Below the pieces are notes generated by a model that was not told where the DNA came from, searched no databases, and saw only the letters and a program-made list of their open reading frames with translations. Below, one piece after another: positions 5,889-54,108 of a DNA stretch of 64,000 nucleotides. Position 1 is the stretch's first letter; every line of letters begins with the position of its first letter. This DNA comes from Heliobacteriaceae bacterium (GTDB taxonomy: Bacteria > Bacillota > Desulfitobacteriia > Heliobacteriales > Heliobacteriaceae). A program made the position numbers and the translations under genes. The DNA is taken from the NCBI GenBank assembly GCA_028707535.1, contig JAQWAU010000003.1:1-64000 (forward strand), written 5' to 3'.

Positions 5889-6017
5889 TGGTATAAATAG
5901 TTTAAAGGGTTTTCGAACAATTTAGATAAATACAAAGGTCTTTCCGCTGACAAGTTTTCATTTTACAAAAAGGATTCTGACAAGTAACGTCGAATTTTAA
6001 ACTATAACAAATAAATT

Positions 6018-6127
6018 GCTCCGAGCCTTGTTTCCTAAAGGGGTATCCCAAGGGAATTTGGCCACCATCACCTAGATGGTCACGGTTTGGTTGGAAACGG
6101 CTAAGCCGCCCGTATTTGGAAAGGAGC
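6018..6127 (+). promoter_or_regulatory. Moco/Tuco riboswitch A
   Basis: The sequence shows the ordered conserved blocks of the molybdenum-cofactor RNA motif: CTCCGAGCC at 6019, TTCCTAAAG, GGCCACC, GGTTGGAAACGG, AAGCCGCCC, and TTTGGAAAGGAG closing at 6126. GCTCC (6018-6022) pairs with GGAGC (6123-6127) as the P1 stem. Three further copies sit on the other strand nearby. A strong terminator follows at 6180-6225, so ligand binding probably ends transcription before the substrate-binding-protein gene. Recognition is by motif; a covariance search was not run. Whether Mo- or W-cofactor is sensed cannot be decided here. Confidence 0.8.
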
Positions 6128-6179
6128 CTTTCTGTTGTGGAAACACAAACGTGTGGTCTTTGTAGCATATTTACTTAAC

Positions 6180-7466: not shown

Positions 7467-8990
7467 TTAAGCCAACAGGTCTTTCCGGCGGTAAACGGTT
7501 TTGCCCCCGGAAAGACTGGTTGCTACCGTTTGCAGGATTGTGGGCAGGTGGATGTGCCGGGAAAAGAAAACCGGCTTTTCTTCGGTAATGGCATGTTCTT
7601 TAATTAGCCACATGGCGGTATGGGAAATGTGTTGCGTCAAGATGACCAAAACGTCACACCGGTTAAGCATTCTCGCCCATTCCGGTTTACGGGCATCACT
7701 GCAGAGCAACCGGCAAGGGTATGTTTTGGGGTCGGCAGGATTGTTTCGCACCCCGCCAAAGATGCCTACCGTCAAGCCGTGCAGGGTGGTGAGGGCTACT
7801 TCCCGGTCGGAGGTTGCCGGTAGCCGACTACCGGCGGTGGCGACTTCCTGTAACACTGCCGGTGGTGGGGGAGCAGGTTGCAGTTCTTTGATTTGGCTCC
7901 TTAGTTCACGATTTAAAGCTTTTAGGTCGCGAATTTTCTGGGCTTGGTCTGACGGAGGAGTAACCGCTGGGAACCGCCGGTCTTTCTGCAGACGCCGGTT
8001 TTCTTGGTTGGCCTGGGAGAGTTGGCGCCCCAGGCCGGTCAGGTGGTCTTGTTGCCGGGCAATGGTTTTTTGCAACCGGGTGATGGTGTTCCGGGTTTCG
8101 GCCAATTCGGTTTTCAAGCGGCGGGAATAGGCCATAAACCGGGAGCCGGTATCGAATGGGGAGATCAGGTTAAAAAGTGCTCTATTGCGGATGGGTTCAA
8201 GATTTGGTACCACGGGAAAACCGAGCAGAACAAAGCTCAACATTGTCCGGCCGAGCATTCTTTCCAGTTTGGCCACATTTAATTTTTGATAATAAAGACC
8301 TGGAATCAGCAGTAACTGCACCGTGAAAGAGACGATAGCATGGAAAAGAAGCTCCAGTTTTGACGGCGGAAAGGTGGCAATGAAGCAATCCCGGACCTTG
8401 GCGATTAGTTTCAAGTATCGCTTTTTGGCTTTGCCCGCAGTGCCTGAACCGACTTTGGCCGTGGGGGAAGGAAGGTCCTGGGGGAGCATGTTCAGTACCT
8501 TAAGCACCTCGAGGAATTCCCCGAGATCCATTTCCGTGATGATTTGGGGCCAGTGAATGCTGAAATAGGCTCGACACCGGGACAAGAAGGCTTGTTGACT
8601 GCTCGCCCATAAGGCTTCTTGCCGGTGCCACTGGGCGGTGAATTCCTGTTGTTGGGCCCAGGTGCGGGTTATTGGAAACACTCCGGGATGGCCGACTACC
8701 GGTACCTCCGAAAAACCAATCTGGTAGCTCCGGGTTTCCCGGGGTGTACCGTTGTCGTCGGTGAACTTTAATTTGACGTGTGTAGCCGGCCGGGTAACCG
8801 CACAGCAGCTAATGGCCGGGATCGGATACAGTATTTTGCCAATTAACATCCGGGGGTCGTTTGGCGCCATCTCCCGGGCCGGTGGCGACGGCAGGGTTAA
8901 CTGCTGATTTTTTTGACAATAAGGACATTGCCGGGATACCACCGGTACTAACCGGAAATCCGGCATAAAGGCCAGTTGGGTTATTTCCAC
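7467..8990 (-). CDS. Coiled-coil protein with C-terminal DUF2325-like domain, under Moco riboswitch
   Basis: No experimentally characterised family was recognised for the whole 507-residue protein. Near residue 20 is a CPYCQKNQ zinc-binding pair; ISCCAVTRP follows near residue 58. Residues about 280-380 form a long charged coiled coil (ELAETRNTITRLQKTIARQQ and on). The last 90 residues resemble DUF2325: VGIFGGVRNNP, then CDVLVILTQHISHTAMWLIK. No signal peptide; probably cytoplasmic. The GTG start is 8 bases from a Shine-Dalgarno that is the 3' strand of Moco riboswitch B, so translation should fall when cofactor is plentiful. This suggests a role in Mo/W acquisition, handling or cofactor use, but the biochemical activity is unknown. 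Confidence 0.75.
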   Translation of the reverse strand: MEITQLAFMPDFRLVPVVSRQCPYCQKNQQLTLPSPPAREMAPNDPRMLIGKILYPIPAISCCAVTRPATHVKLKFTDDNGTPRETRSYQIGFSEVPVVGHPGVFPITRTWAQQQEFTAQWHRQEALWASSQQAFLSRCRAYFSIHWPQIITEMDLGEFLEVLKVLNMLPQDLPSPTAKVGSGTAGKAKKRYLKLIAKVRDCFIATFPPSKLELLFHAIVSFTVQLLLIPGLYYQKLNVAKLERMLGRTMLSFVLLGFPVVPNLEPIRNRALFNLISPFDTGSRFMAYSRRLKTELAETRNTITRLQKTIARQQDHLTGLGRQLSQANQENRRLQKDRRFPAVTPPSDQAQKIRDLKALNRELRSQIKELQPAPPPPAVLQEVATAGSRLPATSDREVALTTLHGLTVGIFGGVRNNPADPKTYPCRLLCSDARKPEWARMLNRCDVLVILTQHISHTAMWLIKEHAITEEKPVFFSRHIHLPTILQTVATSLSGGKTVYRRKDLLA

Positions 8991-8998
8991 TGGATGAC

Positions 8999-9109
8999 TC
9001 TCCTTTCCAAAAACGGGGGGCTGAACCGTTTCCCGTCCAACCCTGACCTGGCTTAAGCAGGTGGCCCAGACTTCATAGATGGTCTTCCTTAGAAGTAAGG
9101 GCTCGGAGA
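8999..9109 (-). promoter_or_regulatory. Moco/Tuco riboswitch B (internal, translational)
   Basis: On the minus strand: CTCCGAGCCC, TCTAAGG, GGGCCACC, GGTTGGACGGGAAACGG, CAGCCCCCCGT, TTTTGGAAAGGAG. It begins 16 bases after the fmdE-type gene and ends 8 bases before the GTG of the DUF2325-like gene. The closing strand GGAAAGGAG is also the ribosome site of that gene, so P1 formation should hide it. No terminator hairpin lies between aptamer and gene, unlike the other three copies. Confidence 0.78.
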
Positions 9110-9125
9110 TTGCTTATATTTAAAG

Positions 9126-14706: not shown

Positions 14707-14730
14707 CAACAGACCGAAAAATTGCGGTAT

Positions 14731-14845
14731 CCTCCTTTCCAAACACGGGGGGCTAGCTGGTTTCCCGGCCAACCGGACCGGCGGATAAAGCCGGTGGCCC
14801 CAGTTTCATAAAAACTAAGTTTCCTTAGAAACAGGGGCTCGGAGG
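14731..14845 (-). promoter_or_regulatory. Moco/Tuco riboswitch C (promoter-distal of a tandem pair)
   Basis: Minus-strand blocks in order: CTCCGAGCCCC, TTTCTAAGGAAAC, GGGGCCACC, a GGCTTTATCCGCC hairpin, GGTTGGCCGGGAAACC, TAGCCCCCCGT, TTTGGAAAGGAG. The conserved blocks match copies A, B and D while the variable stems differ, showing compensatory variation. A terminator follows at 14669-14706. Confidence 0.8.
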
Positions 14846-14860
14846 GAATATGCGGTTTAA

Positions 14861-14910: not shown

Positions 14911-14929
14911 GTTAACCATGGAACGATCA

Positions 14930-15046
14930 TCTCCTTTCCAAAGTGGGGGGCTTGCCGGTTTCCCGGGCAAACCCAGACCTGCCGCGACGGCAGGTGGCCT
15001 GACCGTCATAAGGTGAAACACCTTTTAGACGAGAAAGGCTCGGAGA
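14930..15046 (-). promoter_or_regulatory. Moco/Tuco riboswitch D (promoter-proximal of a tandem pair)
   Basis: Minus-strand blocks: CTCCGAGCC, TCTAAAAGG, GGCCACC, hairpin CTGCCGTCGCGGCAG, GGGTTTGCCCGGGAAACCGG, AAGCCCCCC, CTTTGGAAAGGAG. Its own terminator lies at 14861-14910 before riboswitch C begins. Two complete aptamer-terminator units in series should give tighter or more digital repression of the transporter operon. Confidence 0.8.
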
Positions 15047-15068
15047 TTTATGTAAACATCTTGCCTAT

Positions 15069-52153: not shown

Positions 52154-53950
52154 CTATTGCCGACCGGATTGGGGATAGAGAAATTCATCCCGGATCAAGG
52201 GGGTGATCTCCTTTTTTATTTCCTGTAAAGTGGTCAATTCACGGTCCCAGGTGCTTTGGGCCGTTCTTTGCGTGGTCTCGTGATGTTCTTGAATATGGAT
52301 GGCTTGGTGCAGGGCCTCTTGCAGACTTTGACGGAGTGTGTCGGTTCGTCGGCGGAGATCCTTGGCCACAGCCTGCACATTTTCTTTCAATCCTTCCGTT
52401 AAGTCATAACGAACCCGGCCGCAATTCCGGTCCAACAATTCGGTTAGCTTGTTGCGGGCGGTTTTTTGTAGGTACCTTAACATTAGATTCCGGGGGATCA
52501 GGGAGGAACCCGGCAGTTCATTCAGGGACGGGATTAAACCGGCCCCTGTTTCAAAATGAAAATAGAATCTTTTGTTTTCAAGCACTAAATCCGGGATAGG
52601 GATCCGGGTGAAGGGTACTTCGAAAATTTCGGCAGAGATGGTCATCATCCGGGCGTTGATATCCTCAATCCGTTGAAAGAAACGGGTGGAGATCACGGTG
52701 AATTCTTCCTGAATTTTATACCATTCTTCCTTACGCCACTGTTGAAGCCCAGATTGAATCAAATCACAGATGAAAGTGTTTAAATTTTGGGCTAAGTCCC
52801 GGTTTGAAACCTGAGCCTGTTGCTGTTCCCGGACAAACTGTTCAAGGGCTGCCAAAAACTCCGGGAGGACTGCTTTTTGGAAAGCGGCAAGGTCTGTCGA
52901 GATCAAATTGTTTAAGCGGTCTACTTCCCGGTAAAGCAGGTGAAGGTGTTCTTCTCTTTCTTGGGTTAGTTGCTGTAATTCTGCCTGGAAGCGGGTGGTT
53001 TTCTCCTTTAGGCCGGCCAGATCGCTTTCCAGGGCATGCTGTAAGATATTAAGTCCTAGTTCCAGTTCGCTGATTATGCGCCAGGAACGCCGCGCGGCGG
53101 CTTCCAGGATTAGTTTTCCTTTAGTGGTAATCAAGAAATTATTAAGTTCCTGTTCGAAGTGATTAAGACCGCTTTGCGTTATTTTTCGGAAATCCCGGTG
53201 TAGTTTTCCCTGTAGCGCCTGTCGGGCGGCTAAAGGGAATAAAGCGATTTTTTGGCCGGGCAAGGTTTCCTGCAGAAGGTTATGGCTAAATTCAAGGGCC
53301 TCAGCCAGATCTGCCGGATCAACAAGGTCAATTTTATTTAGGATGAAAAAAACCCGATTGACATAGGAGTAGACGTCTTTTAAATAATCCAGCTCAGCCT
53401 TGCTTAGGGGTGCTTCCACAGAAGTAAGGAAAATGGCCGCATCAGCCAAAGGCAGGTAGCTGTAGGCGGTTTTCGTATTATGCGTGTAAGCGGAACCCAC
53501 GCCAGGGGTATCCACCAGGACTACTCCTTGGGCCAAAAAAGGGGAGGGACAAGTTAGGTATACCGCCTGCACCTGTTTTACATTACGGGGGTTGTGGCGT
53601 TCGGTGACGTAAAGAGCGATTTCCTTGATCTCTACCGTGCTTTCGGTATGATCTAAAAAAACCACCCGGGCAGTTGGCTTTCCGCCATGCTGAATTATCG
53701 TAGGGATAGCGGTCAAGGGAACAATGGCTGTTGGTAGCAGGTCACGGCCCAGTAAGGCATTAATCAAAGTGGATTTGCCCCGCTTAAACTCTCCCGCGAT
53801 TACCAGGGTAAAAGATTCTTGCTTTAGACGACGGATATTTTCGGTTAGTAGTTCAGCGGCGAATGAGTTATTTTTTTGAATGGCCAGGGTTTGCAGTTCC
53901 ACCGTTGCGTTAAGGAGCCGATCTCTTCGTGCGGAAAATGAATTTGCCAA
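52154..53950 (-). CDS. Dynamin-like GTPase under a fluoride riboswitch
   Basis: A 598-residue bacterial dynamin: G1 VIAGEFKRGKSTLINALLG, G2 threonines in VPLTAIPTI, G3 VLVDTPGVGSAYTHN, G4 FILNKIDLVD; then coiled-coil segments (LAGLKEKTTRFQAELQQLTQ). Bacterial dynamins remodel or repair membranes. There is no long hydrophobic paddle that I can identify. A TTG at 53950 is favoured: GGGAGGTG lies seven bases before it, whereas the TTG at 53983 has no ribosome site. It is preceded by a promoter, a probable fluoride aptamer and a terminator, an unusual regulator for this family. Confidence 0.88.
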   Translation of the reverse strand: MANSFSARRDRLLNATVELQTLAIQKNNSFAAELLTENIRRLKQESFTLVIAGEFKRGKSTLINALLGRDLLPTAIVPLTAIPTIIQHGGKPTARVVFLDHTESTVEIKEIALYVTERHNPRNVKQVQAVYLTCPSPFLAQGVVLVDTPGVGSAYTHNTKTAYSYLPLADAAIFLTSVEAPLSKAELDYLKDVYSYVNRVFFILNKIDLVDPADLAEALEFSHNLLQETLPGQKIALFPLAARQALQGKLHRDFRKITQSGLNHFEQELNNFLITTKGKLILEAAARRSWRIISELELGLNILQHALESDLAGLKEKTTRFQAELQQLTQEREEHLHLLYREVDRLNNLISTDLAAFQKAVLPEFLAALEQFVREQQQAQVSNRDLAQNLNTFICDLIQSGLQQWRKEEWYKIQEEFTVISTRFFQRIEDINARMMTISAEIFEVPFTRIPIPDLVLENKRFYFHFETGAGLIPSLNELPGSSLIPRNLMLRYLQKTARNKLTELLDRNCGRVRYDLTEGLKENVQAVAKDLRRRTDTLRQSLQEALHQAIHIQEHHETTQRTAQSTWDRELTTLQEIKKEITPLIRDEFLYPQSGRQ

Positions 53951-53981
53951 ATTAAACACCTCCCTGATCCAGCGATTAGAC

Positions 53982-54018
53982 AAAATAAAAACCTACCCAA
54001 AGATTACCGATGGGTAGG
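53982..54018 (-). terminator. Terminator of the fluoride riboswitch
   Basis: On the minus strand CCTACCC (54018-54012) pairs with GGGTAGG (53998-53992), followed by TTTTTATTTT. The 5' arm overlaps the aptamer's 3' pseudoknot region, giving the usual mutually exclusive on/off arrangement. Confidence 0.85.
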
Positions 54019-54058
54019 AGTCATCAGCCTTACGGCAGGTATGGCGAACTCCATCGCC
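54010..54058 (-). promoter_or_regulatory. Fluoride (crcB-type) riboswitch
   Basis: Minus strand reads GGCGATGGAGTTCGCC (54058-54043), then ATACCTGCCGTAAGGCTGAT, then GACTCCTACCC. This matches the fluoride aptamer: hairpin GGCGATGGAGTTCGCC, second stem GCC/GGC, TGATG-ACTCC with ACTCC able to form the pseudoknot with GGAGT. It lies between a sigma-A promoter and the dynamin gene. Fluoride normally switches such genes on. Recognition is by motif; no covariance search was run. Confidence 0.85.
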
Positions 54059-54079
54059 GAATTTGCTTTTTCAGGAAGA

Positions 54080-54108
54080 ATTGTAACTGTTTTTCGACTG
54101 CCCGTCAA
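54080..54108 (-). promoter_or_regulatory. Sigma-A promoter of the fluoride-riboswitch/dynamin transcript
   Basis: On the minus strand TTGACG (54108-54103) and TACAAT (54085-54080) with 17 bases between. Transcription would begin about 15 bases before the aptamer. The stretch 54109-54275 towards iscR holds a perfect hairpin (54124-54140) but nothing else recognised. Confidence 0.75.

Follow-up and report, generated by a model that had tools for sequence, protein, structure and literature searches.

A family of dynamin-like GTPases encoded behind fluoride riboswitches, with a probable role at the cytoplasmic membrane

Known fluoride defences consist mainly of export and of the replacement of inhibited enzymes. 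The targets of fluoride riboswitches described in the literature include fluoride, K+ or Cl- transport, mutS, formate hydrogenlyase, pyrophosphatase and enolase (PMC2864571, PMC11139923, PMC7266159). Among bacterial dynamins, mycobacterial IniA performs GTP-dependent membrane fission and binds lipid through a loop at a place that matches a loop of the protein described below (PMC6715688), and DynA of Bacillus subtilis protects damaged or stressed membranes (PMC8844932). Here we describe a locus of a Heliobacteriaceae bacterium at which a fluoride riboswitch stands in front of a dynamin-like gene; the whole stretch of 64,000 nucleotides that was analysed is referred to as the window. Our literature search found no paper that links a fluoride riboswitch to a dynamin, the founding paper of Baker et al. 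2012, which may mention such a pair, having fallen outside that search. Papers naming both a riboswitch and a dynamin appear, from their titles and abstracts, to be unrelated, and the main text of the 2010 motif paper does not mention dynamin.

The riboswitch leader and the protein behind it

The features of the locus, in the direction of transcription, are as follows.

54080-54108, minus strand: sigma-70-type promoter, TTGACG (-35, 54108-54103), a 17-base spacer and TACAAT (-10, 54085-54080)
54008-54067, minus strand: fluoride riboswitch aptamer RF01734, a covariance-model match, GGCGATGGAGTTCGCC ... GGCTGATGACTCCTACC
53982-54018, minus strand: predicted intrinsic terminator, a 9-pair stem with a 9-base loop, then the T-tract TTTTTATTTT
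53957-53964, minus strand: ribosome-binding site GGGAGGTG, with 6 bases between it and the TTG start codon
52154-53950, minus strand: dynamin-like GTPase gene, 598 aa plus stop, TTG start at 53950
53171-53812, minus strand: GTPase domain, residues 47-260, with P-loop GEFKRGKST (53-61), DTPG (147-150) and NKID (205-208)
52493-52624, minus strand: predicted inter-bundle loop, residues 443-486, with pLDDT <50 at 453-474

A sequence-only reading had recognised a fluoride riboswitch here and proposed the Rfam model as a check. That model bears the identification out: RF01734 matches 54067-54008 over its full length (positions 1-64 of 64) with 54.0 bits against a gathering score of 34, at an E-value of 3.4e-12 for the window and 2.1e-14 for a 401-base stretch, and our own covariance model, R1, gives the aptamer 54.4 bits. 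Within the whole 2.09 Mb assembly this aptamer is the sole RF01734 match. The TTGACG-N17-TACAAT promoter that had been claimed is present, with 10 of 12 consensus positions matched, and the coordinates first given were correct within a few bases. The window also holds four molybdenum-cofactor riboswitches (RF01055), at 6007-6142 on the plus strand and at 8984-9120, 14716-14856 and 14915-15057 on the minus strand; the last two lie in tandem, with a ModE-like regulator gene just past the pair.

An overlap between terminator and aptamer, likewise noted from the sequence, is borne out by the folding. The hairpin CCTACCCATCGGTAATCTTTGGGTAGG, with the arms CCTACCCA and TGGGTAGG, has a folding energy of -13.3 kcal/mol when folded separately, and its 5' arm reuses the conserved 3' element of the aptamer, GATGACTCCTACC (54025-54013). 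Since CCTACC is common to both, aptamer and terminator would be mutually exclusive. Thermodynamic and sequence evidence thus confirms an expression platform that could compete with the aptamer, the architecture of an ON switch. A generic terminator scan with a loop limit of 8 did not list this hairpin, probably because its 9-base loop exceeds that limit.

The dynamin had also been named as the target with no gene between, and indeed the same-strand gap holds no other gene and the encoded protein matches Dynamin_N (PF00350) at an E-value of 1.6e-28; the list of open reading frames gives the gene a longer start at 53983. Could the riboswitch control something else, such as a small protein, or be a relic? 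A 44-aa minus-strand open frame (54138-54004) does overlap the leader, but it begins upstream of the promoter and runs across the aptamer, whereas expression platform, ribosome-binding site and dynamin gene stand in the standard order, conserved in relatives, so that another target or a relic is barely credible.

An AlphaFold2 model from 55 aligned sequences, across which the residues of the P-loop, DTPG and NKxD motifs are invariant, has a mean pLDDT of 86 and a pTM of 0.74 and consists of a GTPase domain, two long helical bundles (neck and trunk) and a tip loop. Its best folds in the PDB are IniA (6j72, E 3.5e-23) and then BDLP (2j69, E 2.5e-21); the same two are top matches by sequence, there with BDLP best (2j68/2j69, 8.8e-48), and mitofusins are among the matches by both sequence and fold. 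The predicted fold is that of a stand-alone dynamin of the IniA/BDLP type. By analogy, the loop at residues 443-486 would sit where IniA has its lipid-interacting loop and BDLP its paddle, and we infer that it may bind lipid. The window's own assembly contains a second Dynamin_N region (G000:C76:2385-4110), two adjacent open frames that are apparently a dynamin gene pair, and no fluoride riboswitch was found in its fetched flanks.

Distribution and specificity of the pairing

A first pass, in which RF01734 was searched in 150 relatives and the neighbourhoods were read, found the riboswitch to be rare (about 100 matches in 151 genomes) and added to the pair in the window. In a Desulfosporosinus bin (G028), a riboswitch at C46:25622-25682 on the minus strand is followed by a dynamin 41% identical to that of the window, and another at C97:4310-4366 by one 29% identical; a fourth pair lies in G067. 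The Desulfosporosinus bin therefore has two diverged paralogs (L033:2473-4266 and L032:8676-10448), each with a switch of its own.

A single-sequence search of the genome contigs returned zero confirmed relatives, and an alignment-based search worked. For the survey, a five-sequence protein profile was run against 84,980 species genomes on protein similarity alone, the RNA being left unused, and the best 80 loci were taken, among them L058, which is the Desulfosporosinus contig G028:C46. Two loci end just before the gene, leaving 78 with testable upstream DNA. The Rfam scan places a same-strand fluoride riboswitch over the cut-off directly upstream of 49 genes, at a median of 141 bases from the matched protein, and 4 further switches at the head of operons that contain the dynamin. 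A sensitive covariance model built from 30 Rfam-found switches adds 7 direct cases below the Rfam cut-off and 2 operonic ones; L104, with its switch 1.6 kb away, was left out of the direct count. The survey of other genomes that had been suggested for this pair thus gives 62 linked genes (56 direct, 6 operonic) among 78 testable relatives, in a search biased towards the family because its seed proteins were nearly all switch-linked. In the other 16, mostly more distant, no riboswitch was detected by either Rfam or the sensitive model.

Genes with the link come from about ten bacterial phyla and from a single archaeal assembly (a Methanocella bin); individual placements may be wrong, because many of the genomes are metagenome bins. 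The bacterial taxa are Bacillota, Thermodesulfobacteriota, Myxococcota (an NCBI-rank label), Planctomycetota, Actinomycetota, Campylobacterota, Pseudomonadota, Chloroflexota, Caldisericota, Calditrichota and KSB1, and the riboswitch-link label needs 12 changes on a tree of 82 rows. Of 57 leaders, 36, among them that of the window, have a terminator overlapping the 3' element of the aptamer, and in 45 some terminator follows the aptamer, compared with 16% in shuffled leaders; as far as these features indicate, the switches of the relatives look functional. Seven loci (L069, L072, L075, L077, L081, L083 and L128) have back-to-back divergent fluoride riboswitch pairs, one switch before the dynamin and the other towards the opposite-strand side.

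How specific is the pairing? The 83 genomes of the window's class hold 5 genes of the family, few because the family is patchy, and 4 of these stand directly behind RF01734 (one in the window's assembly, two in G028, one in G067); the contig of the fifth (G040) carries other fluoride switches. These 83 genomes contain roughly 48 further strong Dynamin_N matches; checked by position and in fetched loci, none of them lies behind RF01734. Most members of the family thus have a fluoride riboswitch immediately before the gene or at the head of its operon, and the other dynamins of the class have none, a recurrence that argues for a conserved, fluoride-inducible dynamin family.

The same observations bear on the idea of a general stress or anti-phage dynamin captured by chance by a fluoride riboswitch in a few lineages. 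DynA does have an anti-phage role (PMC8844932), and the window protein shows weak similarity to the LeoA/LeoBC models of a defence library. Chance capture is disfavoured by the survey, and we hold it to be highly improbable, as the pairing turns up again and again across some ten phyla, occurs at both of the diverged paralogs of the Desulfosporosinus bin, and is missing from other dynamins of the same genomes. Filing the protein as anti-phage, with the LeoABC dynamins of defence or secretion, was considered and rejected: the similarity to the LeoA model is weak and at superfamily level only, and where LeoABC has paired dynamin genes in one operon, a single dynamin gene follows the switch here and in most relatives.

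Gene neighbourhoods and a model for the GTPase

Why place a dynamin under the control of fluoride? Most of the linked dynamins are single-gene units, so that neighbours tell little about function in most genomes. The operons that do occur contain known fluoride genes. Two of them (L052, L094) run riboswitch, Na+/H+ exchanger, UspA, dynamin, and another (L109) runs riboswitch, CrcB, DUF190, dynamin, with UspA, CrcB and DUF190 assigned by eye. In the Desulfosporosinus bin the dynamin gene has behind it a cyclopropane-fatty-acid synthase gene that a frame break divides into two parts (L032), and in G077 a fluoride riboswitch precedes an intact gene for this enzyme, a linkage suggesting that the membrane is among the targets of the fluoride response. 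Taken together, these neighbours favour protection of the cytoplasmic membrane, and the membrane-directed response that the sequence-only reading had offered as the reason for the pairing is the explanation that both fold and neighbourhood would favour. In the window's assembly, which is 87.6% complete, no CrcB, CLC or PF00999 Na+/H+ exchanger was detected.

Fluoride riboswitches also gather in islands, with 8 in the Desulfosporosinus bin (L031/L032, G028:C46) and 12 in a class relative (L034, G077:C10). The genes before or near these switches encode MutS-like pairs, H+-pyrophosphatase, enolase, MFS transporters, GGGtGRT proteins, Na+/H+ exchanger, CrcB, DUF190 and cyclopropane-fatty-acid synthase. 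A fluoride riboswitch in another genome of the window's family, one that consists of a single contig (L016, G004:C1:1203045-1203106), directly precedes genes for a TauE/SafE-family transporter, which is thereby another candidate fluoride exporter, and for an iron-sulfur scaffold-like protein.

The following model builds on what the sequence establishes: the switch with its expression platform, the gene, the fold predicted for its product, and a pairing that is widely conserved. Transcription would begin just upstream of the aptamer. When fluoride is absent, the terminator would form and RNA polymerase would halt before the GTPase gene; when fluoride is present, as a Mg-fluoride complex, the aptamer pseudoknot would be stabilised and hold the CTCCTACC element, blocking the terminator and allowing the GTPase to be made. 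We regard this regulatory half, whose fluoride-on sense follows the established mechanism of these riboswitches, as very likely. The GTPase would then assemble on the cytoplasmic membrane, at its inner face, and remodel or repair it upon entry of HF and fluoride. In doing so it would limit leakage, loss of the proton gradient or the damage that acidification causes, and it would act beside fluoride export or, in the window's genome, possibly in its place. This membrane-protection half is the likelier account of what the protein does, though well short of the regulatory half in firmness; we found no source establishing membrane damage by fluoride at physiological doses. For the explanation as a whole, a fluoride-inducible dynamin-like GTPase that protects the cytoplasmic membrane, we estimate a probability of about 60%.

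Fluoride might also act on the GTPase itself. A fluorometallate (MgF, AlF or BeF) bound along with GDP imitates the transition state and holds dynamin heads locked together, so that cellular fluoride would both induce the protein and switch it to a clustered, membrane-bound state. This would account for the recurrence behind the switch of dynamin and no other GTPase family, and GDP-BeF3 stabilises the trans interaction of mitofusins, relatives of the window protein's fold (PMC7136618). Such an effector role is nonetheless unlikely in our judgement, as it requires Al3+ or Be2+, or tight binding of Mg-fluoride, in cells, and no feature of the sequence sets this GTPase pocket apart from the pockets of other dynamins.

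Alternatively, metal fluoride might inhibit the GTPase and the cell might simply make more of it, as is assumed for enolase and pyrophosphatase. These two enzymes are known targets of fluoride riboswitches (PMC11139923), an H+-pyrophosphatase-like gene in the G028 island is led by a switch, and the G077 island has an enolase gene close to its switches, both genes being assigned by eye. However, enolase and pyrophosphatase serve housekeeping functions, whereas the dynamin has a patchy distribution (5 genes in 83 class genomes), which argues against an essential enzyme whose activity must be made good and leaves the supply of a sensitive enzyme an improbable reason for the pairing.

Protection of the cytoplasmic membrane remains our preferred reading. 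A bolder form of it would see a trans-phylum family of dynamins dedicated to fluoride resistance, acting through export-independent, riboswitch-induced membrane remodelling that is possibly triggered directly by GDP-metal-fluoride, with the dynamin as the sole fluoride-regulated gene of the window's organism; we offer this as a tentative extension, and the odds are against it in full.

Comparison with known systems

Fluoride riboswitches and bacterial dynamins are each known; their pairing suggests that one arm of the fluoride response, probably directed at the membrane, has gone unrecognised. If this is correct, a membrane-remodelling GTPase would constitute a third arm of fluoride defence, one shared by about ten phyla of bacteria and a single archaeal assembly, with relevance to the engineering of organofluorine-degrading bacteria, in which fluoride tolerance is limiting. 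A bacterial dynamin family would at the same time gain a defined inducer, making its function testable by the addition of fluoride.

Like other RF01734 riboswitches, the element in the window has a full aptamer, an overlapping terminator and the expected ON logic; it differs in its target, a dynamin-like GTPase. Mycobacterial IniA, the best fold match, resembles the window protein in size, domain order and its neck and trunk bundles with a tip loop. IniA is stress-inducible too, but by cell-wall drugs, whereas the window protein stands under a fluoride riboswitch, and the two share only about 18% identity. BDLP1 of Nostoc, the best PDB match by sequence and the second-best fold, is longer (695 aa) and has a defined hydrophobic paddle, and to our knowledge has no link to fluoride. 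DynA of Bacillus subtilis offers a precedent for the membrane protection under stress that we propose here, but it consists of two fused dynamin units, and the window protein scores 81.6 bits against the cut-off of 1600 of the DynA model NF052648 (NCBIfam).
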